Shown piece by piece: positions 16,274 through 58,240 of a DNA stretch of 64,000 nucleotides. Source of the DNA: Sphagnum magellanicum (Eukaryota > Streptophyta > Sphagnopsida > Sphagnales > Sphagnaceae). The stretch lies in NCBI GenBank assembly GCA_021904315.1, contig CM038919.1, positions 8,618,001 through 8,682,000 of the forward strand. The letters are read 5' to 3'. The notes below the pieces were generated by a model. That model was not told where the DNA came from, did no database searches, and was given only the letters and a program-made list of their open reading frames with translations. Each line of letters opens with the position of its first letter. Positions within the stretch are counted from its first letter, which is position 1. Position numbers and translations under genes: made by a program.

Positions 16274-17032
16274 GGTGCAAGTACGTAGATAGGAGCCAAT
16301 GGGATTACTTTACAAAAGGACTATGAATCCTTTTTAGTCATTTTTCACTTTTTCATATGAAAGAATTTTTTAATGAAATCTTTTGCAACTTGTTATTAAA
16401 AATACATATAGTTGCCCCAATAAATCACATGTTTTGTGTTAATCATTGTTGAATAAATATGAATTTTTCAAAGTGTGTAAATTTTGCGTTTCATCTTGAA
16501 AATTTATAATAATTTTGAATCATAACAAAATATATTAATTACTTTAGGTTTTTGTTCTATTATCATGAACTACAACTTTATTTTTTATGTCATGCACATT
16601 ACATCCCATTTACATGTGGCAAAGGATTCTTAAAAAAATTTAAATTTGAAAAATACTTGGAATTTTAGAATTTTAGAATTCCATATCTTTTAAATTGTGA
16701 ATGATTTTTGAACTTGGGTAGTAGGTTACTATCATCAAAAAAAGTTTACCATCAAAATTATGTTATTACAATAGTTTTTTGCTTAGTCCTTTGTAAAATT
16801 AATCACAATTTGATGCAACACCTATTCAAGTTCAAACATCCTTTTTCAAAATCAAAACCCAAATTTAATTTAATATAATTTGAATTCCTTAACATTCATA
16901 TTAGTCATTTAACACAACTTGGAATGATTAACAAAAATTTAAAATGTCAAGAGAAAAACATATGTAAAAAATTTCACAATTTTCACCACTATTTTACATG
17001 GTTTTTGGTTCTTATCTTTGTACTCGCACCCT
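16274..17032 (-). mobile_element. ~750-bp TIR element, copy 1
   Basis: The ends are imperfect inverted repeats: GGGTGCAAGTACGTAGATAG at 16274 versus GGGTGCGAGTACAAAGATAA read inward from 17032. It shares its length with the 38216-38962 copy in opposite orientation; for example GGGGCAACTATATGTATTTT and the flanking AACAAGTT string occur in both. It has no coding capacity, so it is a non-autonomous DNA-transposon-like repeat. A target-site duplication could not be confirmed. The transposon superfamily is unknown. Confidence 0.65.
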
Positions 17033-27480: not shown

Positions 27481-30200
27481 CCATTCACACTTGCAATTAA
27501 TTGAATGGTAAAACAATGTTGCATAACACAATTTTATTTCATATTCACATATGCAATGTTAATTAACACAATATTTGAGGTGGCATCCTTGCTGGTTGGA
27601 TGGTTAATTCATTGTTAAATGAAAAGGTTCTTAATAGCATATTTTCAAAAAATGTAAAATTTTGCCCAAAAAACCAACATTACATAAAATGGCAAAAATC
27701 AACCAAGGATGTTGGTGTTAAGTTATAGAAATGTCCTTCCATTGCTTCCCCTTTTCTCTTCCCACCTTTGAGAATGTACATGTTATAATTTTAAATAGAT
27801 TAATTTTGAAGCAATGCATTTGCAAGTTCAAAGTTCCTCATTATACAAGAATTACAAAATTGTTTTAAATTATCTATGACTAGATCAAAAGAGGGCACAA
27901 TAAATGCCATAAATATAACAATGAATGTAATAGCAGATGTAACAACATTCACAATTTTTGGGTGTGTTAGTTTAATTATTCAATCGAGTCTAATTAATTA
28001 AGGATAAATTGGGTTAGCTTAGTCATTTGGGTTTTATCTTGAACCAATTCAAGTGTGAATAAGGTTTAGGATATTTTTGTTGAGGGGATATAATCCCAAG
28101 TTGTGTGATCTCAAATCACTTTTGGTGATTTGAAATTCTAGAACACATAAGTTTGTGTGTTTGTGGTTTTTTGTGTTATGCAAGTTTCTTTTATAAGGTT
28201 TTTATTGGGTTTTGTTTTGTGTTTTCTAAGCTTGGATTTTTTTTGGTCATAGGTGAATTGGATTTTTTGAATCACCAAAAGTTTAGTCTAGTTTTGTGTT
28301 GTGTTACAATTATATTCAATTTTGTTTAACATTTGGTTTATTTTTGTTTTGCATGGGAGTTGGGTGCAACACATTACACCATGTTGTTTTTGTTATTTTT
28401 GCTAATTTTGGGTGTTCTTGGTTTAATTTTTAAATTAAAAAAACTCATTTAATTTTTTTTGTGATTTTGGGTTTCAATTTTACATCAAACTCCTTTAGGA
28501 GTTGAACCCAAACAAGACGTGACATGGAAAAAAAAAACTTGTGGAATTTTTTGGAAATTCACCATAGTCACACCACTCATGTGGAAAATTTCAGGTTATT
28601 TAGTGACAAAAATGTTTTAAAAGATTTTTCTAGGGCATGGGGTGGTGTGCGATCACCATTCTTGTGCCAAACTTTTGGCGAATCAACACATCCTAATGAA
28701 TTTGCATTATTATACTTCATAGGTGGAAAAATGTTATGTCATTAACAAATGTAAAGGATTTGAATTATTGTCGTGATTTTTGTGTAAAGGTTGTGTTGCA
28801 TGATTTATGCATCTCCATTTATGTTTGTTAGGTTGGACATGTTACATGTTAGTATGATGGTTGAATTGTCATATAATTTCATGAGGTGGGAGGATTACCA
28901 AGGAGTGTACCATTTGGTTATGACCTAGGAGAACATGCTTTTAGGTTGACATCTTGGTAGTCTCTGCTTATTATTCAATGTCAAACCCTAGGTGAAAAGT
29001 TATGTGCCTTTTCACACATGCCTTTATTGTCATAATGAGCTTAGGGTTGTGATTGTGTGGTTAATGTTTGGGCATGGGACAAAGTTAAGTTAGGGTTAAG
29101 GTTCACCACAAAAAGGGCACAAGATCCAAAAACAAGGAATAAGGTTGCCATCACTAATGGTTTTACAAAATGTAAGGTGCAATTCAAACCACTCACACCA
29201 CTTTCATCATCATTTGGTGGGTGGGGGTCATCGAATTTAGAGACAAGTTCACCTCTAAAGTTTATTACTACACCATTGTTGTGGAACATAGAAGACATGT
29301 ACAAAGTCACTAAAAGGCCCCACTAATATTTCAAGGCAATTAGCACCATCAAATTAGATGATTTTATCTAAGAGTTTTAACAACTAATGTGATATGCAAT
29401 AGATGCATAATCCCTAACTATTCACACCATTCATGGCATGGAAGGGTTTATTCTAGCATATGAAGAAGTTGTTTATGGATGATGACCATGAGTTCAAGTG
29501 CATGCCCATGAGATTCATATTGAGGAGTGATTATTTTATTTGTCGCCCAATTGTGTGTCTATTACTAAAATACATGTGGTCCCAACACATGTTTCCATTT
29601 TAAATGTGACCACAACAACTTTTAGTAACAATTTGGCTAGTGGGGGTGGGAATACAAGTGGCAATGGAATCATCCAAAGTGGTAGTAAATTCAAAGTGGT
29701 TGTACTAATCCTTCCATTAGTACCTAGGTTTTATTATTGGCATTTAACCTAGGTGTGGAATTTTTTCGAAGGTTGTGCATAAATTAGTAAGAGATATGGA
29801 TGAAAAAACCATGAAATCTACAAAAGTTCTAGTGTAAACCACATGATAGCTTACGAGAGCTCATGCATGGATGCATAAATTGATTATAATGATGTAAGGT
29901 GTTATAGAAGCCCACGTGGTCCAATTTTAGTATGGGATTTTAGACAAGAAGTTTAAGTGTTGGGTGCGGGATGCCATATTATTTGTTGACATGTGAAACC
30001 CACTTTGGTGAATGCGTTCCAATTATTGAAATGAATCAAGATGAACATGGTGGAAGAATGGGTGGTTACTTTTGGGTTCAACAAGGAATTTTTGGGCACA
30101 ATCAATTCAATAACCATGGAGCCAACCCAATAAGGCCATGCCCTAGAAAAATGAAAAAGCTAAACGTGAATCAAGTGGTTCCATTTCATATTTGGTGGAA

Positions 30201-30260: not shown

Positions 30261-31325
30261 CTAATCCATCACATGTTCAAACCATTAACCTTAACCCCAA
30301 TTAGCCAAGTTCCCATTGTAATGCATATAGGCATGAGGTTGATCATTGCTTCACACTTCACCCGAAGTTACAAGAAGGCCAATCACAAAACACCAATGCT
30401 CATAAGGGCCAAGGTTCTAGGAAGGTGCAACCAATAAGGTAGGCAAACAATAGATTAATGTAAGGCCAATCCAACTCCATGGAGGTTAGGTTTGCACAAT
30501 TGGAAGTTTTAGTTTTAAGCATGGCAACCCATGTGAAATCTAATGCATCTAGACTTCAAGGAAAGCAAGGGGTTAGGAAAATGGCCAATCTTCTTATTCA
30601 AATGATCTTATGTGGAGGATATTTTTATGGAATCAACTTTTCAAGATAAGTGGCCCCAAATAAAAATATATTGGATATTTCAAAAGGCCACAATGATGGA
30701 AATAATGTTGGAGTTTTTAATTTAGTCAAGATATTTTGACAATTGCACTAATGACAAGGGCTAATGCTCGAGAATTGGAAACATGAAGTGTTGATGAAAG
30801 GTTGGATATTCAATGCAATGAAGTTTAGTGTTAAATGTGGGTGCCACAATCATTCAAGTTGATAGACATTGTTCCCAATCTTATGGCCTAGGTGTCAACT
30901 TTTAATGGGGTGCCAAAGAAGGCGCACAAGTATATTTTTGGGCCCAAGGCACCCGGAAGTTTATTGGGGTGGCCAAAGTCACATATAAAGCACCATTGTT
31001 TTTTTATTAAAACATTGGTCATTCTAATCATTCAATTGGTAGTTGTGTTTTGTTTAGTGGCCACATTATGTGTGAGTGGGAGAACACAAGATGTGGGTAG
31101 GTTAAAAAACAATATTATACTTGTTATAATTCCCTTATAGGTTTTTGATGCCAACTACATAGAGGTGTGCAAGGTTCACCTTGAATTTTGGCATGTAGTT
31201 GCAACTAAACTTCATGACCTTTTATTGTGACCAACCATTGATTAGGTCATTGTTGTTCCCAATGTGGTAATGACACATAACAAGGAAGAAGTTTTTCAAT
31301 TGAAGGGGGTGTCAACATGTTGGTA

Positions 31326-31505
31326 CCTACCCATAAAATTTTATTGGATTTTGGTGTTTAACCATTAATATTGGGTGAAGTTGTTGTCAGTAATCTTGGA
31401 TTGATCAATGTTGATTTTGACCCATGCCCATACCAAATTTTGACATCAATGGGTGATTTTAAAAAGGCTCAAAAATCAATTAGAGGTTACCATTGATTTT
31501 GGAAA
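31326..31505 (+). pseudogene. Retroelement aspartic protease remnant
   Basis: PTHKILLDFGV, a stop, then PLILGEVVVSNLGLINVDFD and PCPYQILTSMGDFKKAQ. The LLDFG core, with the catalytic Asp at 31347-31349, followed by the PL-LG and EPCP-Q-TS-G-type strings, matches the pepsin-like protease of plant gypsy-type elements that use a D-(L/F)-G core rather than DSG/DTG. Downstream EVTIDFG and SYNITHDDKQELIL may be its second half. At least one stop inside. The enzyme would have cleaved the polyprotein; it lies directly upstream of the methyltransferase. Confidence 0.6.
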
Positions 31506-31829
31506 AAAATCATATAATATCACCCATGATGACAAACAAGAGCTAATCTTAATTTGCACATGAGTTTGAATTATTAGAAAGTAACATCCATGATCAACAT
31601 GAACCCCCAAACAGGGAATTGGCGATCTCAAGATCACAAGGGATTTCATTCATTCAAGTTTCTACCTTAAATCCCAACCCACCATGGGGCACATTGATCA
31701 AATTACAAGCATTGGCTACTCAATTTATTCATCAAGTTTGGCACCTTTTGCCATCACTAAACCTACAAACATTTGTGGATGTTGGTAATAGGCCTTTTGG
31801 TTTGAGTCCATTGGATACCGGGGTTATTC

Positions 31830-32815
31830 ATTGGGAAATTCCCAAGGATGAAATATGTTTACTTGAATTTTTTGGAGGCATTAGTTTTGCATTAGTTGGA
31901 GTTCCATAGTCTAGCATTTTAATTCAAAGATATCATTATGTGGAAAAGGATTTACAAGCTAGACAAACCTTCATACAACATGTCATGATGTTGTAACAAA
32001 TTTATCCCAACTTGTTGCCAACATTAGCCATACACGGTTATCAACATGCTTAACCAAACCACATTATTTTGTTTGGGGCACCAGATTTGGCCAAGGTTGG
32101 GCCAATTGATTTGCTCATTTAAAAATGGTCATGTTAGGGCCTTTCACATGTTAATTTGGCCAAGGACTTTTAGACCTGAAATCAAGACTTTTCTAGGAAT
32201 TAATTCATAGTTTGTAATATTTGCAAAAGATGTTGATGCACTTGTGTGCATACATGTTGGAAAATGTCCCACCATTGGGAAATTTTCAGCCAATTGTTTT
32301 GGCAAGATGGCAATAAATCAAGGCTCAGATTGGAAGGCCAATGTAGTTGGATGTTACAATTGGTTCACATCATGCCCATTGGTTCCAGTGGTTGTAGATT
32401 AATTCAATTAACATCACCAGAGGTGATCCAATGAACATATTAATTCATCCTAGGTCACCCACATGTTTGGTGGATGACATATTGGATTTAAGGCGACATT
32501 CATGTGTGGTTCATCATCATTATGACCTTTAATTATGGTCAATAAGGTTGGACTTCCATAAACAACCTCATTGACCTTATTAAAATTTCCTAGTCCCATG
32601 CATTTCAAGATGGAGGCCTAGGGATGATTTGGGACTCCAATTCATCCAATATGGAGGAGCCCAATGTGGATGAAAAGGAACAAACCATGGGTTTTTGCAT
32701 TAGCACCATAACCATGTCATGCATTTTAAAGGGAGCTTGAAGGTGAATTTTGGGGCAAGTTAGGGACATTAACTACTTCACATGACTTTTTAGTTTGCTA
32801 TTTTTTGAATAAGCA
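31830..32815 (+). pseudogene. Retrotransposon-borne cytosine-5 DNA methyltransferase, decayed
   Basis: Motifs run in canonical m5C-methyltransferase order. Before the domain is NRPFGLSPLDTGVIHWEIPK (31789-31848). Motif I (AdoMet binding) reads ICLLEFFGGISFALVGVP (31855-31908). Then come a YHYVEKDLQARQTFIQH acidic-loop block, PDLAKVGPIDLLI, and the motif IV region KWSC-GLSHVNLAKDF near 32125, where the catalytic Pro-Cys-Gln has decayed to Ser-Cys-stop. YMLENVPPLGNFQPIVLARW (32250-32309) carries the ENV of motif VI, followed by GSHHAHWFQWL. The C-terminal blocks are EEPNVDEKEQTMGF (from about 32655) and ILGQVRDINYFTWLFSL (to about 32810), of motif IX-X type. The length, about 325 codons, suits a full catalytic domain. 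At least six stops and several frameshifts mean it is dead. The family would methylate cytosine in DNA using AdoMet. Its place between protease and RT shows it belonged to the element. Confidence 0.8.
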
Positions 32816-33265
32816 CATTTGGCACATTTTTCCCCACCAACCCACTTTACACATACACTTGTTGCATCATCAATTGGGATCGCCATGTTGGTGCAAATAG
32901 GGGTGATGTAATAACATGAGTTATACATCTTTAACATATGTGGGATCAAGAACACATAGAAAGATTTATTAGTGTTGGGAAGGAGGTTGGTGAAGTGGGA
33001 GTGCTAAGATAATGTAACACTTCCCAATATTCTACATAACAACCATAGGTCACATTCTCAACTTTGGGCTTAATGGGGATAATCTATCATCCTAACCCAA
33101 AACACCATTGATCATGACCACTTGGGAACTGAATATTGGCTTAGTGGTTATGAGAAATGAGATGCACACAACATGATGGTCATTACAAGATTATGGGATA
33201 TTTTGCTTTCAATTTGAAATAATTAGGTTGATTGAAAAGATAAGAGGTCTAGATCATATTGGAGG

Positions 33266-33645
33266 ATGATAATCCAATTTTCAAAATACCTCATAGGCTT
33301 AGTGAGCTGGAGAAGCTTTTCATTTAGGCTTGGACAATAGAGTTATTGGATGTGGGTTTGGTGGAACTGTCTAGGGGTTAATATGCCTTGGTAATAGTGA
33401 TGATAGCTAAGAAGGATACTTTTGATAATTAAACCAAACATCACATGTGTGGGGATTACCATTCAGTTAATAAATGGATTTGCTAAAAAATGCCATGCCC
33501 ATGTCAGAGGATATTTTTGATGCCCTAAGACAAGTTAAGGTTTCTAGTATTTTGGATTTACGATTTGGTTATCATGAGTTGCCATTAAGGGAGGGTGACA
33601 AGGTCAAAACAACATTTTGGTGTTGGTTTAGGGAGAGTTTAGGCC
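33266..33645 (+). pseudogene. Ty3/gypsy-type reverse transcriptase, 5' part only
   Basis: DDNPIFKIPHRLSELEKLFI, then ELLDVGLVELSRG, YALVIVMIAKKDTFDN, HHMCGDYHSVNK, AMPMSEDIFDALRQVKVSSI, LDLRFGYHELPLREGDKVKT and TFWCW. This is the fingers and first palm block of a chromovirus-like RT. The first catalytic Asp is present in LDLR (33556-33567). Three stops in 33266-33477. Homology ends near 33650, before the second catalytic block, and unrelated A-rich sequence follows, which marks a deletion or an insertion breakpoint. Confidence 0.75.
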
Positions 33646-38215: not shown

Positions 38216-38962
38216 GTAAAAACATGCTAATAGGAGCTAGAAAAGGTGTTAGGAGTCTTTGAAAATTTCAAATTATAGTAAATGTGTTTTTGTTTTGACA
38301 TTTTAAAGTTATGTTAACATTTCAAGGTGTGCTAGATGACTAATATGAGTGTAAGGGTTTTTTTAAAATTAAAATTTGGGTTTTAGTTTTAGTAAAGGAC
38401 TTTTGAACTTGAACAATAGTTGTGTTAAAAGTAATCAATTTTGCAAAAGACTAGGGTAAAAGACTCTTTTAATGAATAAAATTTTATGATTAAAAAAAAG
38501 ATGATAATAACCTACTACCCACATTCAAAAAACACTCACAATTAAAAAGTTGTGAAATATTAATTTTTTAAAAGTTCAAAGTATGTTTCAAAATCTCAAA
38601 TTTTCAAAAATCCTTTACCACATGTACAAATGGGGGTGTAATGTACATGACATATAAAACAAAGTTGTAGTTTATGATACATAAAATTAAAACCTAATGT
38701 AGCTACCATATTTTTGATATGATTCAAAATTATGATAACTTTTCAAAATAAAATGAAAAATTTAGCAAAAATTGCACCCTTTATTCAACAATAACTAACA
38801 CAAAACATGTGATATATTGGGGCAACTATATGTATTTTGATAACAAGTTACAAAAGATTTCATTCAAAAATTCCTTTATATCAAAAGTGAGAAAGATTAA
38901 AAAAGATTCATAATCCTTTTATAAAATAATCCCATTGGCTCTAAATTATCATGTTTTGACCG
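38216..38962 (+). mobile_element. ~750-bp TIR element, copy 2
   Basis: Same family as 16274-17032, opposite orientation. The ends pair: GGGTAAAAACATGCTAATAG at 38216 against CGGTCAAAACATGATAATTT read inward from 38962. Internal identity includes GACTAATATGA, ATTGGGGCAACTATATGTAT and ATAATCCCATTGGCTC. The TIR sequences differ from copy 1 but each copy's ends match each other, so the inverted symmetry is genuine. Non-coding. Confidence 0.65.
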
Positions 38963-43523: not shown

Positions 43524-45460
43524 TTGGACATGGGGAATACTTTCAATTTGGTGTCAAAAGGAGTCATATTTCAAGAACTTCATGTAGCAAGTGGGGATAT
43601 CATACATTTCATCCCCTTTGTTCGTGCATTTTATGTGTTTGTGTCTCCCCTATTTTATAGTCATTGTAATCATGAAAGCAAGGTCCTAATCATCCCATCT
43701 ACCATGGAAACCTGTCAAGGTGATCCTTTGGGAGGGGCACTATTTGTTCTAGTTCATTTTAAAGTTCTTTGTTTTACAACTGGTTATTTTCCCCTCTTGT
43801 CTATTTCCCTTTACTACAGATGACATTCACATCATAGGTTCCCCCTCAATTGTATCATTTGCATATGAACATTTCCAAGTTGAGTTTTGTGAGATAGGTC
43901 TTTTTATCCAACTTCAAAAAGTGTAACATGGTCCCCCTCTGGTTTATTATTTAACTTTGACACCCCATCCCTATTTAACACCCCATCAATAGGAATTAGA
44001 GTATTGGGGGTTCCATTGGGTACTTCATCCTTCACATCAACTTTCGTCAAAAAAAATTTATTGGAGGATGTTCAACATGTTGATCTTCTCCTTAAAATGG
44101 GTGATGTTTAGGTAGCCTTTGGAATTTTAATTATTTGCTTTGAACAACCATAATATCTATTATGATTCACACCTCCATCTTCCACCTTCATAGAATCCTT
44201 TGTTTCTTTTTATTTTTCTCTCCTTTAAATGTTTGGGCGCCTTTTGGGTCCAAGATCCTTTGATAGTCTAAAAGGACCTTTAGCCTATAAACAAGCCTTT
44301 TTCCCAATAGCTTTTGGTGACATCGACTTCATATGAACAACCACCATCGCTCTAATAATCTATTCAAGGAACTGGGCCTTTGTAGCTTCCATCATAGTTG
44401 ATAGGTTTAAGGGTGATCAATGTCCCTTCCTTCTTGAAGCCTTAACACGAGTTGACAACAACCTCTTCTTTTTCCAACAACACGTCAAGGCGGCTTGCGA
44501 TCTTCTACCGCCCCCAGCATGAGCGTGTCTTCCTCCCTTTGAACAATTCATTGGCCAACAAATGGTTCACTTTCAAGATTCCATTTCGAAGTGTTTGCAC
44601 CATCATACCCTTTCCAACATGCTTTTCAACAAGATATTTGAAACCCATTGTGTTCAAATATTATCATGTTTCGGCCTTGGTGCAGGCGTTTTGGTTTACA
44701 ATTCGATCAACTTTCCTAGCCTTTCGATTATTTTCCCCATCCTTTTCCATAGTGCTTCAAACATGACTTGGAGTACCACATCCTTCAATTATAGGTATCC
44801 CTTGATGTATGTGCACACATCCCATCGATGTTACAAATGTCATTTTTTATGTTGCGCCCACGGCAATGAACACATAGGCACCCATGATGAAGTTTGTGAC
44901 ACTTTTTCTACCATTGCACAAGATGCCAACTTCCATGTGGGACGAAATTAACTACATGCTTCCTTCAATGACATTCCACTCCTTTCGTCGATGAGTTGAT
45001 ATTATGCTCACCAAAGATGGAATTCACACCCTAGCCAATGTTGTCATTGTTCGTCCAACACAAGTGGATTTACTTTGTTGATCTTACGTAACCTGAAGAT
45101 TTGTTGCCTCCAAAACAACTCAAGCCAAAGAAAAGGCTATTGCAACTAACATCCCACTGATCATTTCCTCCTTTTAACAATTGAGGTGTTTAGATGTTTA
45201 GACAAACAAGTTGATGTGTTCTTACACGATTGTGCCAATGCCGTGTGGAACTTCAAAAGGCTAGAGGGCCTTCCTCTTTTTGTTTTGGTTACGTTTCTTC
45301 GTAAAAAAATCTCAATTACATTACAAGGGATGCAAGCATCCTGCATCTTAAGTCAAGCGATAGCAGTAGGTCTAACTACTTCTTGACTTCCACCCCTTCA
45401 AAATTTACCCCCAATCACCATGGCTGACCTCCTACAAGGAGTCAGTTGTTGAGACAATTG
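43524..45460 (+). pseudogene. Decayed non-LTR retrotransposon (LINE) ORF with zinc finger and restriction-like endonuclease
   Basis: The RT part reads DMGNTFNLVSKGVIFQELHV, with the catalytic Asp at 43527. METCQGDPLGGALF follows (the QGDPLG block of LINE RTs), then after a frameshift TDDIHIIG at 43816-43839, the (F/A)DD catalytic pair with Ala changed to Thr. Further on are PQHERVFLPLNNSLANKWF, a Cys/His cluster CCAHGNEHIGTHDEVCDTF (44849-44905), and VDIMLTKDGIHTL and ANVVIVRPTQVDLL (about 44994-45083), a PD-D/E-xK-style endonuclease stretch whose acidic residues have partly decayed (D to N, D to R). The end LDKQVDVFLHDCANAVWNFK and LVTFLRKKISITLQGMQA (45190-45340) completes it. This architecture, RT followed by zinc finger and restriction-like nuclease, belongs to early-branching, often site-specific LINEs. 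Frameshifts and stops make it dead. The 5' part is missing, as is usual for LINEs. Confidence 0.7.
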
Positions 45461-46540
45461 TTGAGACAAAGAGACTTTGACATCTAGTTTGTGTTTGTTT
45501 CACATCCTGTAAATTGATCCTTTTCATTTTTCTTTGTCCCTTGTACATTTTCTAGATCTGTGGTGTGTTTATTAATAAAGTTTTGCAGGGTTAACACACA
45601 CTTGATAAACTTGCCTAGGTTTTTGTTAAACAATTGGCTCACATACTCACCTAAACCAATGCCCAAACCCCCACCCTTGTCCTAAACATGTCCAACTCTA
45701 ATTGTGAAAAAATCCTCCCCACACCCAAGTGGTTCTTTAAAACTGAAGATATTCAATTAATCAGACTCAGCCAGTTCTTGAAAAGATATTTTTTCTATAG
45801 CCCATACCTCATTGTTATAAAAAAGAATCAAATACCTGCCCCACACTGGTTTGAACCTTAAAGCTTTGTAATACCAAACAAGGACCTGAATGCTGAACCC
45901 TCAGGCCCAACAATTTAACACTTGGGTCTACTATGGTATATATTGGATTGGTAATAAACACGGAATAAGAATTAACGAAATGCACCATATCCAGCAATTC
46001 CATTGGCAATAACTTATTTTATTCAATACTCTCTGTATATTAGTAAGTCTGTATATAAACAGGCTTAAAAAATGGTTAAATACAACAAACAAACAAACAA
46101 ACAAAATTATAAAAAGGGGATAATATAACCTCTAGGTATTAGGTAATAACTTAACAAGAGGCCTCACCAGAGTCTTTTGGGTGTAAAAAATCTCGCCAAA
46201 ATGACAAAAAATAAAAATGAAATATTCTGTCACAAAATGTTGAAAAAAATCACCAATTTTTTATTATTATAATTTTTTTTTTTGGCCCGCAAGTGGACTC
46301 TGAATTCAGTTTGGTAGCATTTTTTTATTAGTTTTTTTTTCCTATTTAGACAGGTTCAAAAACCTGTCGCCATTTAATGCTTAATCCCTCTTGGGATAGT
46401 AGCCAATTTCACAACATCAGAAAATTGGAAAATTGTTTTTCACTGGGGCTGGTTCACCCTGGCCAGTTTTACCCACCCCGCATCTGGTCACGTGAGCCAG
46501 TCAAATTAAACTGGAAGAGAATCGGATATTTACGTAATCG
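45461..46540. other. Intergenic stretch upstream of the trihelix gene
   Basis: No coding homology. It holds an (ACAA)n microsatellite at 46085-46105 and T-runs at 46273-46284 and 46320-46343. A TATATAAA-like string occurs near 46052, too far upstream of the gene to call its TATA box with confidence. Confidence 0.35.
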
Positions 46541-46755
46541 GTGAAAGTTGTAAGGTACCTTACCAGGCCTAAAGGTTTAAAGCTAACTCATGGGGCGCAC
46601 CTCGGTTTCTTTCTCTCCTTTCTTTTGCACTTTCTCTCGTGTTCTCGTGTCCCAGGGAGCTCTCGCGTCGTCCTCGCAGCTACGAACGAAGGCTGTGCAA
46701 GAGCTGGCCTCCGCTCGCGTTTGGATCTCTCTCTCTTGTTTTTGGTTTTAGAAAT

Positions 46756-46793
<38 letters not shown>

Positions 46794-46943
46794 TAAGCAC
46801 TCCATTGCGGTTGTGTCGTCGTAATTCTAATCGGAGATCTAACAAACCAGACTTGTTTCAAGGTGGTTGTATCCTGCCGGTGTTGGAGGATTTTGTAGGG
46901 ATTTGGATCCAGCGATGGCGGTGTGTCTTCGGATTCTTCTCCC
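46541..46943 (+). promoter_or_regulatory. CpG-rich 5' region of the trihelix gene (promoter/5' UTR)
   Basis: G+C and CpG rise abruptly here compared with the flanks. The region holds CT-rich tracts (46604-46635) and a (GA)n repeat at 46760-46791, a common feature of plant 5' UTRs and GAGA-type promoters. No TATA box is evident at a usual distance. The ORFs that read through it (46541-46954 plus, 46588-46845 minus) are composition artefacts. The transcription start cannot be placed from sequence alone. Confidence 0.55.
46760..46791. repeat. (GA)16 microsatellite
   Basis: Uninterrupted GA dinucleotide repeat about 150 bases upstream of the trihelix start. It may be transcribed as 5' UTR and is likely to vary in length. 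Confidence 0.9.
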
Positions 46944-47031
46944 ATGCAGAATAACAAGCAGCAGTTGGTGTTTTCGCCTGGAGTCGTCGCTTCGGGAATC
47001 GCACGTGATGCAGGTTGCAGGACGGGTGTGA
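46915..47031 (+). CDS. Overlapping upstream ORF, 38 codons
   Basis: The ATG at 46915, 29 bases before the trihelix ATG and in another frame, has a strong context (G at -3 and G at +4). The trihelix ATG at 46944 has C at both -3 and +4. The uORF ends at 47029-47031, inside the main ORF. If the transcript includes both ATGs, this uORF would lower translation of the main protein. It would not matter if an upstream exon is spliced in at TTTTGTAG (46891-46898), which lies exactly where the main frame opens. Its peptide is probably not functional. Confidence 0.3.
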   Translation: MAVCLRILLPCRITSSSWCFRLESSLRESHVMQVAGRV

Positions 47032-48182
47032 GTGGTTCGGGAGGGATTTTTTTGGTGGAGGCGGAAGCTGCGAACCGAGGAAAGGAGGAGAAGAGGAAGG
47101 ACAAGAAGAAGAAGAAGACGACGACGAAGAAGACAGGAGGAGCCACGAAGAGTCCAAGAACGGGAGGAGGAGGAGAAGGAGGAAGTAGAGATGGCGAATC
47201 GCAGACGATCCATGGTGACGCGAGTGGTGAGAGCGAGTATTCGTTGGAAAATGGGGTAAGCTCTTGGAAGGAGGGGAAAGATGCGTGGAAGGAGCAGCGC
47301 GAAAATGGCACCATTAAGAGCGGTGCTGGGACTAAGAAGGGAGCAGGGAGAGATGAAGAGCGTGCGTTAGGAAGGAAACGCAAGCGCAGGGAGATCGAGA
47401 CCGCGGTGCCATGGACGGAAGAAATGGTCAGGTTCTTGTTTGAAACCTACGACGACGTTCACCGCAGACTGTGGATTGAAAGCCGAGGGAAAGTGAAGAA
47501 CCAGAAGAAATGGGATCCTATCATCAAGACGATGCAAGAGAAGTTTGCCAGAGATTTCACCAAGAATCAATGCGAGAGCAAATACTGGAAAGTGCGGAGA
47601 GAATGCACCAAATACAAGCTTAAATTAGAGAAGCGAGCGCAGTTGCAACCGGATCTGTACGCCGGCAAGACTGTCAGAGGCTTGCTGAAGCCGAAGTTCT
47701 ACGACGTCTGGTTGGAAGTGGCTGGCAATAGCGCTGCTCCTATGCCGGAGATCGACCTTTCTTTGGGGTCGCCCGGGGAGACGTCTCCCGATCGTCCTTA
47801 CAGGATCCCAGGTGGCTTTGACGAAGAAGCAGAGGCGATGATGATGGAGGAGAACGAAGATGTGCTACTGGCGCGCCATAGACATTCCTCCAGTTGCGCC
47901 ATCGTTAGAGAAATGCAGCAAGTCATAAGCGTGCAGTTGGAGGCTTCGGAGAAACGCGAGGAAGCTCTGAACATTAGAGCTGAGTTGACGATGGAGCTCT
48001 TGCGACAACACATGGACCGTATGGAGAGGACGGGGTTCACTGTGGAGGATGCTAGAAAAAGGCAGTTGCAGATGATCGAAGGGGTGGACAATAAGCTGGA
48101 CAGGCTTGTGCATGGCTTAAGTGCTTTGAATGGAAACATTGGAGCCATCATCAACAGACTGGCTTCTTCCAACTCCAGATAG
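46944..48182 (+). CDS. Trihelix (Myb/SANT-like) DNA-binding protein, intact single exon
   Basis: 412 codons from the ATG at 46944; the frame is open from 46899. Residues 46-65 are a lysine-rich basic stretch (KEEKRKDKKKKKTTTKK) and 147-154 (GRKRKRRE) a probable nuclear localisation signal. Residues 155-235 are a trihelix domain: VPWTEEMVRFLFETYDDV, NQKKWDPIIKTMQEKF and TKNQCESKYWKVRRECTKYK give the three helices with Trp157, the KKW and the QC-sKYwk signature. EIDLSLG (267-273) resembles an EAR repression motif. An acidic stretch follows (about 290-305). Residues 320-412 form a long helical coiled coil ending VDNKLDRLVHGL and NGNIGAIINRL, likely for dimerisation. No stop or frameshift, many CpGs and balanced codons support a working gene. 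The role as a nuclear transcription factor, perhaps a repressor, is inference. The start could lie further upstream in a spliced exon. The 211-codon minus ORF here is its shadow. Confidence 0.85.
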   Translation: MQNNKQQLVFSPGVVASGIARDAGCRTGVSGSGGIFLVEAEAANRGKEEKRKDKKKKKTTTKKTGGATKSPRTGGGGEGGSRDGESQTIHGDASGESEYSLENGVSSWKEGKDAWKEQRENGTIKSGAGTKKGAGRDEERALGRKRKRREIETAVPWTEEMVRFLFETYDDVHRRLWIESRGKVKNQKKWDPIIKTMQEKFARDFTKNQCESKYWKVRRECTKYKLKLEKRAQLQPDLYAGKTVRGLLKPKFYDVWLEVAGNSAAPMPEIDLSLGSPGETSPDRPYRIPGGFDEEAEAMMMEENEDVLLARHRHSSSCAIVREMQQVISVQLEASEKREEALNIRAELTMELLRQHMDRMERTGFTVEDARKRQLQMIEGVDNKLDRLVHGLSALNGNIGAIINRLASSNSR

Positions 48183-51735: not shown

Positions 51736-52994
51736 AATTTAATATTTTCCAGGAATCTGGTTGCTTCCCAAAAGCCATAATAACAGAGTACAAACTCAAA
51801 GTTGTGCATACAAAAGAGTGTCACTTTATTCATGTGTACTTACTCTCTCCCCTCAGATTAATGTTCTGTGGTCACTGGTGCTCTCCAATGGACCCCACAT
51901 ACTGCACAGCAGTGATTAAATAGAACCCCACAAATTTGGTCTTCTTTTTGGAGCCAAACAAATTGGGAAAAATTCGGATTTTTTTTCTTCTTTCGGTATT
52001 GTTAAATTCGGCTATTTTTTAATTTCATTTAACACCCTACTTGAACCATGCATACAAATCATGGTTTTCCCTAATTATAATTTTTTTTAATTTTCAAATT
52101 TGGGCAATCTTTTTTCAAAAAATCATTTAATTTGCAACATAAGATTTGTTGCAATCTTATTTGTTACATCTGTGAACTATAAAAAGGCTGGAGCACATAC
52201 TCTTTAAAAAGGGAAGTACAACCCTTTTTGAGGAAAGGTTCTTAGTTCATCCGGCATCGCAGGACATATGTATGTAACACACTTTTCGGCCTTTGTTCCC
52301 CATAGGGGGGGGGTGGGGGAGTCTGGACTATGGATTCCTGGCAGCAGTGGTGAGCTATGCATTAGATGGCAACGTTTCCACTGAGCTGGTTCTTAGCCTG
52401 TGGTTTCTTGGAGTTCTCTCATTTATAACTCACAGAACTAAGACAGAATGGACTCATCATCTCTTCAACATGGAATGAGCTTCTGTGAAGAGGTTTATGA
52501 TTGTCCATCATCATCAAACTTCCCCCCTATGTGCGTAATTCTTTGGGTTCTTGTAGTATCTCTTCTATTGACCAAGCCATTTTGTTACGTCTACAAATTT
52601 GTTGTGTCTAATCAAGTGGCAACCAAACTTAAGTTTGTGAATGAAGTGTTTGCTTGGTAGAGATGCTTGGATTGGTACAGTATTTCCCCATAGGGAGAAT
52701 TGACAACTTTCCAATGAATAGCATTGTACATGTCTTTTCCAAACCTATGCTTGCCTTGCCATTCTTAGGAGAAAAAAATGGGTTTGTTCTTCTTGTGCAA
52801 GGACTAGGATTTGAGAAACTTGTGTGTGATCACAACAATTTTGCTCTATTGCTACAGCATGCAACATGTCACAAAACACCTATACACCTCGTGTAAAGTT
52901 TTCATCTGTTTTTGGTCTCTAAAATGCAATTACTATGGTTCCAACTATCCAAGTTATTCAACAAAGATTGTGATACACGATTAGCTCCGTTAGA
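51736..52994. other. Stretch without recognised gene
   Basis: ORFs at 52293-52478, 52448-52660 and 52654-52896 have mixed, non-repetitive composition, but I recognise no domain. They could be pieces of one decayed gene, because they follow one another on the plus strand in overlapping frames. Confidence 0.25.
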
Positions 52995-53528
52995 TAAAGA
53001 TGATTCTTCAAAGGACTAAGCTAAGGAATCTTATAATTTTAAAAAAAAATGATGGTAAAAAAAATTGAGAAAATAATAATCTATTATTCACTCAAAAAAC
53101 ACTCACATTGTAGAAAAAATGAAAAATGAAAATTTTAGAAATTTAAAGTATTTTCTAAAATTTTAAAAGTCTTTTATCACATATAAATGGATGTAATGTA
53201 CAAAACATATGAAACAAAGGTTTCTAGTTTATAATACAAGAAACAAAACCTTAAAATAGTTTGCATATTTTTATATGATTTGAAATTATGATTATTTTTC
53301 AAAACAAAGTTGAATATCTACACACATTTGAAATTTCATATTTATTTAACAATGTTTAAAACATAACATGTGATGTATATTAGGGGCAACTTTAAGAATA
53401 TTTAATAACAAGTTGCAAAACAAAAAATTCAAAAAAAATTTTTTATGAAAAAGTCAAATGGATTCCAAAATGACTTATAGTCCTTGGATTTAGTAAATGA
53501 GTGGCTCCTTTGAGGTGATCAGACCCTA
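52995..53528 (+). mobile_element. ~750-bp TIR element, copy 3 (5'-truncated)
   Basis: Matches the 38216-38962 copy from its inner left region (CAAAGGACTAAG) to its right end: ATGTAATGTACA, ATGTGATGTATATTAGGGGC, AACAAGTTGCAAAA, TATAGTCCTTGGATT and GTGGCTCCT all align. About 220 bases of the left end are missing. Confidence 0.6.
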
Positions 53529-56500: not shown

Positions 56501-57400
56501 ACTTTAATTTGTTAAAAATTGCATTGTAAGGGAAGTTCTCCAAAGTGAAAAAAAGTTGTGAAAACATGCCCACAATAGTTGGAAAATGTTCATTCAACCC
56601 CCTTCATAGCTTTGACTTCATGAAATTTTTTTTTGAGAATGTTCTTTCATGTTGATTGGCTACTCCCAAAAACATAGACAACAACAATTTCTACCAACTT
56701 GAAAAGCTTAGGGAAAGAATTGCTTAATATTTTTAAGCATGACAAAGTGTGCCATAGTTGATCAAATGGATTCACATGAAATGAAGCTCCATGGCTATCA
56801 CTACATTAGTTCTCATTGTGAATTTAAAATTGTTACATTGCAAGCCAACGCTTGAAGTGACAATATTGAAGGAGAGACAATTATACCCAACTCAAATGCT
56901 TGTAACATTAATGACCTTTAACAAACAAAGTACTATTATTCAAAATTCAAGTCAACATTTTGTTGCAACCAATATTGGGGATAAACAATTAGTAACGAAA
57001 TGATTGGTTAATTCCTTTCTGAAGCTTTAACTTGCAAGTTAACAAGACATTAAATAATAGTTTAAAATATTTTAGAAACTTAACATAAAATAGAAACATA
57101 AATAAAAAAGGCAAGAAACACACTAATGCACAACTCCTTCACCTTTTCCAACATAATAATGTAAGTTTGTTTGTGACACACCTTAGTTTTTTGTCACATG
57201 GTTTGGGGTAAATAATATAGAAAGTTTGTTCAACACATTGAAATATTAAACATTCAACCCTCATTGTGTTCAAATCAAATTCAAATGCAATCCACAACAA
57301 GATGATGGTACCATGCAATGCACTCCCAAGCTCCTTGATAAACTCAAATGTGAATATAAGGTGAAAACAACGAAAATATAAGGAGTTGGGGCACGCTCCT
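53529..57400. other. Very AT-rich stretch without recognised gene
   Basis: No protein motif or RNA gene. An (AT)n repeat lies at 55873-55892. Asn/Lys/Phe-rich ORFs (55230-56370 minus) reflect composition. Confidence 0.35.
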
Positions 57401-57579
57401 TAATTCGCAACATTTCGGGGGTAGAGGGGCGTGCTGGAGCTTTGGGATGAGGACTACGATGAATGACAAGCAAGTCAATTAATCACATGGATCTACACAC
57501 ACCAAACAACAAGTTGGTTAGTGCATAGTTGGAACACTTCTGGTGTACGGACGAGCCACGAGCGAACATGGACTCATAA

Positions 57580-58240
57580 GACTCACCATGGCCTAGACTT
57601 GGGGGAAACCACCACCTTCCCCCTTATAATATTCTTTATGCTTGGCCACGGGGCCAGCACCCAAATGTCATTTTGTCTCGGGACACCCAAGTTGGAGTCC
57701 CGAAATTCTTGAAATTAGGGCTCCCGTGACTTTGGAGGCCCATAACTTTATGTGTAAACTTCCAATTAAGATGAGGTCTAAAGCAAAGTTGTAGCCCTTG
57801 TCGAGATCTTTTCAATGGTATGTGACAGGTCACCTGCACACAAGGAAATCAGGGCGATTCCCAACTTTTAATGGTCGGGAGTCAAATTGGCAATTTGATT
57901 CCTGACCTTTTTTTGGGTCATAATTTATGTTTTAAGTGCCCAAATGGGTCATGCGAACCTATTGTAAAAAATTTTTTTCCAAGAGCTTTCCAATGATATA
58001 AGGAACTTTTCAATTCAATGAGCTTTGACCCCTATAATCGCCCTCTAAAGATTCAGGAGTCCATCAGGACTCCAACTCCCAAAGTGGGAGTTCACTTGGG
58101 AGTGTGGGGGTTCATTCCTTCACACTCTCATACATTCTTGGGAGCATGAAATGTGATTCTTGAGTTTCACTCTTGGCCCACACGTTCGCAAGCCCTTGTC
58201 GTGGTCATGAACCCAAGGCTAGGGTTGCGACACCATGCTT
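57580..58240 (+). repeat. LTR-like dispersed repeat, young copy
   Basis: Homologue of 26885-27480 with many CpGs still present (also in 57380-57580, which may belong to it), so much younger. Landmarks: CCTAGACTTGGGGGAAACCA, TTTTGTCTCGGGACACCCAA, AACTCCCAAAGTGGGAGTTC, and near the end AACCCAAGGCTAGGGTTGCG. It has no coding capacity and no internal retrotransposon genes next to it, so a solo LTR is plausible (inference). Confidence 0.55.

Follow-up and report, generated by a model that had tools for sequence, protein, structure and literature searches.

The window analysed here is the whole stretch of 64,000 nucleotides of Sphagnum magellanicum (contig CM038919.1, positions 8,618,001 to 8,682,000), and near its middle lies what looks like a broken DNA cytosine methyltransferase (MTase). 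The sequence-only reading of the window had taken this MTase to be captured inside a Ty3/gypsy retrotransposon, between a protease core and a reverse transcriptase (RT), and had proposed that a land-plant lineage hosted such elements. Is the MTase really a part of the element, and did such elements reach land plants? Cytosine methylation is the chief weapon of plants against retrotransposons, and an element with its own methyltransferase turns this host weapon round or uses methylation as a disguise. The case previously known on the plant side is that of one streptophyte alga.

A decayed methyltransferase within a broken element

The MTase of the window belongs to the DNMT3 class of C5-cytosine methyltransferases and survives in decayed form at positions 31826-32818 of the + strand. 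Its joined read of 333 residues runs through three reading frames, with three frame changes and 16 stops inside. All of the motifs that had been named were found there in the canonical order (Table 1). The profile search that had been proposed as a check gave no match to Pfam DNA_methylase on the window MTase, either in the raw frames or in the joined read with X at each stop, and RVT_1 matched the window with only E 0.12. The absence of a methyltransferase profile match, which had been named in advance as counting against the claim, is thus literally what the window gives, but related copies elsewhere in this genome do score above the Pfam cut-off, and for this reason we attribute the missing match to decay.

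Single-sequence and family searches both led to DNMT3. The best PDB sequence match of the joined read was DNMT3B (phmmer, E 0.0013), and a profile of the window MTase with its database relatives matched 29 PDB sequences, DNMT3 without exception (best 7.1e-5). The joined read also matched five database proteins (E 1.2e-69 to 2.8e-25). When these five were searched back with tblastn, strong matches in the window were confined to 31980-33061 on the + strand (down to E 3.7e-39); their best match elsewhere in the window had E 0.018. Chance resemblance is ruled out by the reversed-window control, which gave nothing better than E 1.7.

Related loci in the genome were sorted into group A, which is the window's kind, old and broken, and the younger groups B, B' and C. 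With their help the element around the MTase could be traced, and its gag, protease (PR), MTase and RT portions all lie on the + strand, with the MTase between the LLDFG protease core and the RT as had been claimed. The gag frames of loci L028 and L029 match the window at protein level at 29273-29495 (E 1e-4 to 6e-6). The protease core lies at 31332-31454, with LLDFG read at 31341-31355; by itself it is weak and has no Pfam match, and the PR-MTase frame of L028 matches the window at 30964-31454 (tblastn, E 6e-11). From 31700 onward the PR-MTase frames of L028 and L029 align to the window, their MTase portion covering 31700-32773. The RT pieces of the window match the Ty3 RT in PDB with E 6.2e-6.

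Table 1. Features of the element copy, in window positions
Feature	Position	Strand	Remarks
gag-derived remnant	about 28640-29552	+	DNA similarity to L013 at 28640-29087 and 29087-29552 (70-73%)
Protease-containing stretch	about 30693-31472	+	DNA similarity to 9 group A loci (68-70%)
Protease-MTase spacer, without stops in the MTase frame	31553-31825	+	stop-free frame 31553-31906
MTase motif EICLLEFFGG	31850-31879	+	
MTase motif GLSHVNLAKDF	32138-32170	+	motif IV of the window copy reads SC
MTase motif YMLENVPPLG	32251-32280	+	
MTase motif EKEQTMGF	32672-32695	+	
MTase motif ILGQVRDINYFT	32747-32782	+	
TAA-CAA-CCA, corresponding to the in-frame stop that related copies share between MTase and RT	33037-33045	+	
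Ty3/gypsy RT fragment	33202-33620	+	L029 RT, E 7e-27 (tblastn)

Many group A alignment blocks end at 33620, which is likely the break point of the window copy. Neither RNase H nor integrase nor a terminal repeat of group B or C was detected in the window, no repeats of 40 bases or more occur around the copy within 24-42 kb, and tRNA and Rfam scans of the window found nothing. Six patterns made from P0001 had no match in viral contigs, and a padded protein search gave no long relatives of P0001, the searched region being perhaps short of the whole protein. The copy in the window, at about 28.6-33.6 kb, is thus truncated and belongs to an old Ty3/gypsy family of the LTR type with an MTase between PR and RT. 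It is dead, as had been stated.

Linkage across the genome and the younger copies

The genome searched comprised 438,994,042 bases in 31 contigs, in which P0001 had at least 148 matches (from 1024 candidates). Similarity to P0001 was about 41-45% for groups B and B' and about 30-34% for group C. Group A was read from its 20 best loci, each with at least three stops in the matched stretch. At the DNA level a single alignment block starts inside the MTase and reaches the RT in 18 of these 20 loci; in L002 and L006 the alignment comes in two pieces on one strand, with an additional short piece on the opposite strand in L002. RT was found by tblastn in the flanking stretch of all of the 20 but L016. 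Starting from the RT, 117 copies drawn from 4113 candidates were scored and, among the matches listed, 80 had an MTase match on the same strand no more than 3 kb upstream (the median gap being 408 bases), none had one downstream and one had it on the opposite strand. The upstream stretches of 12 of the 37 remaining RT copies were inspected and 11 contained the MTase, the exception being L046, whose RT match begins only at query residue 65.

These counts (18/20 single-block loci, 80/117 and 11/12 RT copies) show that the MTase is built in and not inserted, and the objection that full-length copies might lack the MTase segment falls with them. That a host gene fragment or another transposon had entered between protease and RT in the window copy only has next to no chance of being true, for although the copy in the window is, taken by itself, decayed and weak and no repeats flank its MTase or its element, this explanation is refuted by the linkage counts, by the two-piece alignments of the other two loci and by the occurrence of MTase and RT within single open frames. 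As judged from these comparisons of sequence, the MTase domain dates back to the ancestor of the element and is common to group A and to the younger groups B, B' and C.

A check had been proposed of whether PR, methyltransferase and RT share one open reading frame in intact copies, and this was found in group C. The frame of L021 (2379 residues) comprises PR, DNA_methylase, RVT_1, RNase H, H2C2, rve and PHD, and that of L022 (1936 residues) the same set of domains. Elsewhere in group C the frame of L026 is without PR, L025 is interrupted by a stop and L024 is without PHD, which is absent from L023 as well. Pfam DNA_methylase matched above the cut-off in both group C (E 1.8e-8 to 7.6e-9) and group B (2.9e-13 and 2.2e-12), and the open frames also matched PHD (up to 4.3e-12), RVT_1, RNase H, H2C2 and rve. 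The PHD finger of L022 resembles KDM5-type and other PHD fingers, the best match being Lid (3.3e-13).

Both ends could be read in seven copies (only one end in L030 and L033). The elements end in TGTC...GACA, and perfect 4-bp target duplications flank six of the seven (L021, L024, L025, L027, L028 and L029); in L032 two of the four bases agree. Plain long terminal repeats at both ends were not found, the repeats being split into A-ORF-B-A-B (L022, L024, L026, L029, L031, and the 3' half of the same layout in L030) or A-ORF-B (L021, L025, L027, L028, L032). Identity between repeat copies is 99.0 and 98.8% in L024 and 98.6 and 100% in L029, and these insertions are therefore recent. Target duplications accompany both integrated forms, which could arise by B-B recombination within insertions or by integration of one-repeat and two-repeat circles.

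The pol order PR-RT-RNaseH-integrase with a DDE integrase (L021, L022) and an RT akin to that of Ty3 identify the elements as Ty3/gypsy, only PR and RT being left in the window itself, and the short target duplication with TG...CA ends is that of Metaviridae. A DIRS element was rejected, since the rve integrase and the 4-bp target duplications stand against the tyrosine recombinase and absence of duplication of that order. With younger open-frame relatives elsewhere in the same genome, such elements did reach land plants; the proposal that a land-plant lineage hosted MTase-bearing Ty3/gypsy elements is supported by a moss genome that holds both old and younger open-frame copies.

A shared stop codon and a model for the element

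Between MTase and RT the elements share a stop codon. L028, L029 and L030 have TAG followed by CAACTA at the same place after the MTase, and L031 has TAG-CAA-CCC there, in frame with both sides, one alignment running through the stop. Each of the 14 distinct group B/B' copies that were read had an in-frame stop (GCR-TAR-CAA), TAG in 12 and TAA in two, always with GCA or GCG before it and CAA after it. In the alignment of group A with the window, TAR stands in 19 of the 21 rows (TAA 11, TAG 8), with CAA next in 18 of the 21, and the RT match at 33202 has the same phase as the window's own TAA at 33037. The group A stop was in phase with RT in 14 of the 20 scored copies and with the MTase match in only eight, L019 being counted among the 20 at a mispicked stop site. 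Conservation of the nine stop-site columns of group A is good but not unique, the same level being reached in 61 of 895 windows. No stop separates MTase and RT in the longest group C frame (L021, 2379 aa), and recoding is thus not a feature of every group.

Readthrough is known to occur in the context UAG-CAR-YYA, the strict form of which is not kept in B', where CAA-CCC departs at the last base. The shared stop suggests, as far as sequence can, that Gag-PR-MTase is the main product and that RT would be obtained by readthrough. The stop might instead be the true end of a first ORF, with RT made by splicing, reinitiation or from a second promoter. The loss of the strict hexamer in B' fits this, and so do 12 relatives (P0007-P0012, P0016-P0021) whose Gag-PR-MTase frames end 75-162 residues past the MTase, none with RT, although these frame ends may be stops or contig ends. 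We consider this explanation somewhat unlikely, as RT resumes in the same frame right after the stop, the L031 alignment passes through it and CAA adjoins the stop in 14 of 14 group B/B' copies.

Readthrough is one part of the explanation that we favor as a whole, with a probability of about 0.8: the window holds a dead copy of an element with an ancestral DNMT3-class MTase in a Ty3/gypsy pol, which would have relied on readthrough, packaging, self-methylation and steering by PHD. In groups A, B and B', translation would normally end at the UAG after the MTase and give abundant Gag-PR-MTase, and readthrough of the UAG would give RT-RNaseH-integrase(-PHD). Packaged along with Gag, the MTase would methylate newly made cDNA or the element just inserted. 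In elements whose integrase product ends in a PHD finger, this finger would steer insertion via a histone mark. The element would then pass as already-methylated host chromatin and persist. This model builds on the domains and their order, the linkage, repeats and target duplications, the conserved catalytic residues, the purifying selection and the shared stop; MTase activity, readthrough, packaging, a PHD ligand and a benefit to the element are what it would predict. Its fullest version is a land-plant Ty3/gypsy lineage with its own epigenetic writer and reader, in which the UAG was kept through groups A, B and B', the MTase was packaged at Gag level, RT, integrase and PHD came from readthrough, the element methylated its own cDNA and its placement followed chromatin. 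We put this version forward tentatively, at rather less than even odds. Since green-algal counterparts carry the MTase elsewhere in pol (RT-RNaseH-MTase-integrase-PHD), the writer-reader pair would be older or was assembled more than once.

Silencing, persistence or dosage control, the purposes originally suggested for the MTase, may each apply. The enzyme could act mainly on host DNA or other elements (through dosage control, inter-copy immunity or spreading of silencing) and not on its own cDNA, since an MTase produced together with Gag, in larger amounts than RT, could reach the nucleus; the accessible text of PMC6453930 describes de novo CG and CHH methylation by DNMT3B of another moss. 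We regard this target as unlikely to be the main one. For self-methylation, which we prefer, de Mendoza et al. 2018 (PMC5890265) discuss, in the text available, methylation of an element's own cDNA and escape from recognition. The same text reports that the MTases of DIRS elements (SymbioDIRS-Dnmt3) methylate CG de novo in yeast, and that a yeast test of the MTase of KnitGypsy-Dnmt3 gave no methylation, a result that its authors called inconclusive.

Class, constraint and relatives of the methyltransferase

A profile of the group B and C MTases ranked DNMT3A first among PDB sequences (3.1e-16), then DNMT3C and DNMT3B, with DRM-type (1.4e-8), M.HhaI (8.3e-7) and DNMT1 (0.25) below. Among solved C5-MTases the domain is thus nearest to DNMT3, and a DRM-, DNMT1- or DNMT2-type enzyme was rejected on this ranking. 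Motifs I, IV (Cys), VI (Glu-Asn), VIII and X are unrearranged. Host DRM and DNMT3 enzymes are of the same catalytic fold class as the element MTase; three loci (L034, L035, L036) are host DRM-type genes and differ from it in their rearranged motif order, and L037 is a MET1-like fragment.

The MTase is under purifying selection. In group C, pN/pS was 0.21 for the MTase (21 pairs, 7 copies), 0.28 for RT and 0.03 for rve, and in group B it was 0.51 for the MTase (3 pairs, few changes), in copies chosen for open frames. Could the domain be non-catalytic by now and serve the particle structurally or by binding nucleic acid? Motif VI reads ENT rather than ENV in group C, and among the 71 homologues that have a residue at the V position, 43 carry a different one. 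Such a role without catalysis seems improbable, as the catalytic Cys of motif IV is kept in all 72 homologues, the Glu of motif VI in 71 (with one gap) and the RxR of motif VIII in 70-71, and as pN/pS in group C is low.

FastTree, run on 84 rows (P0002-P0005, P0074-P0077, L026 and L032 were dropped and the window row was left out), set 79 element MTases apart from the DNMT3A/B pieces and three host DRMs with support 0.95; DNMT3A and DNMT3B enter this tree as pieces, plant DNMT3 and Klebsormidium nitens rows are absent from it, and its deeper splits are weak (0.07, 0.38). The hosts named among the 72 homologues were Haematococcus lacustris, Monoraphidium neglectum and Closterium, with one bacterial MAG label, and no K. 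nitens sequence was identified among them. The bacterial case (P0054) is such a polyprotein labelled as a Minisyncoccia bacterium MAG, probably a binning error.

Closterium and the moss elements have the order PR-MTase-RT-RNaseH-integrase(-PHD). In 38 of the 72 homologues (P0014 and in the P0023-P0072 range), including those of Haematococcus and Monoraphidium, the order is RT-RNaseH-MTase-integrase-PHD, which places a DNMT3-like domain at a second position in gypsy pol, between RNase H and integrase. PHD is present in 45 of the 72. Distance matrices of MTase and RT were correlated (r 0.80, 0/2000 permutations as high, n=49), dropping to r 0.48 among pairs whose MTases differ by more than 40%. 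Because of this drop, and because two domain orders underlie the correlation, we do not claim a single capture.

Chromoviruses are Ty3/gypsy elements with an integrase chromodomain. As in these, a chromatin-reading domain ends the integrase of some moss elements, but a PHD finger replaces the chromodomain and a DNA methyltransferase is added. The closest known system is KnitGypsy-Dnmt3 of K. nitens, described in the available text of PMC5890265 as an LTR Gypsy pol with an unrearranged Dnmt3-type domain. By that description the two are alike in their retained catalytic residues, purifying selection and Gypsy domains, and in their A-coding-B-A-B repeats, the same departure from plain LTRs. The moss elements differ in their host, in comprising several groups of different age and in the shared MTase-RT stop, the likeness being one of description; some also have a C-terminal PHD finger, and "PHD" is absent from the main text of PMC5890265, figures aside. 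As in moss, SymbioDIRS-Dnmt3 and SymbioLINE-Dnmt of Symbiodinium join a cytosine methyltransferase to a retroelement pol or ORF (according to the same text), but with tyrosine recombinase or LINE machinery instead of a DDE integrase and 4-bp target duplications. PMC5890265 concluded that acquisition in the K. nitens lineage was independent, and the MTase-bearing gypsy frames in chlorophyte and zygnematophyte proteins bear on this 2018 conclusion.

The moss elements are thus a known kind of element in a host group where, by the available text of a 2019 paper (PMC6338049), transposon methylases are not present, a hypothesis being built there on their absence in land plants. PMC12344493 names, in the portion available, streptophytes and dinoflagellates only. 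The words "methyltransferase", "gypsy" and "retrotransposon" do not occur in the main text of the Sphagnum genome paper (PMC9946827). A literature search that left most subscription journals outside found neither a Gypsy-DNMT3 element in a land plant nor a PHD finger beside a retroelement MTase, and the shared MTase-RT stop and the PHD finger beside the MTase are apparently previously unreported. A moss with many copies, some of them recent and open, makes the role of the MTase accessible to methylome, ribosome-profiling and biochemical tests.

Two other observations concern the surroundings of the element in the window. Repeats at 57321-58230, 16349-16798, 38372-38886 and 52990-53435 recur in flanks of L011/L013 and of L015 and, as far as seen, have no relation to the MTase element. 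An open frame of 419 aa at 46923-48179 (+), with no Pfam match at E 0.01, looks like a host gene whose product, by eye, we take to be trihelix-like. It falls in the only part of the window with high CpG observed/expected, 0.70 for 44001-48000, all other 4-kb bins having values of 0.11-0.26.
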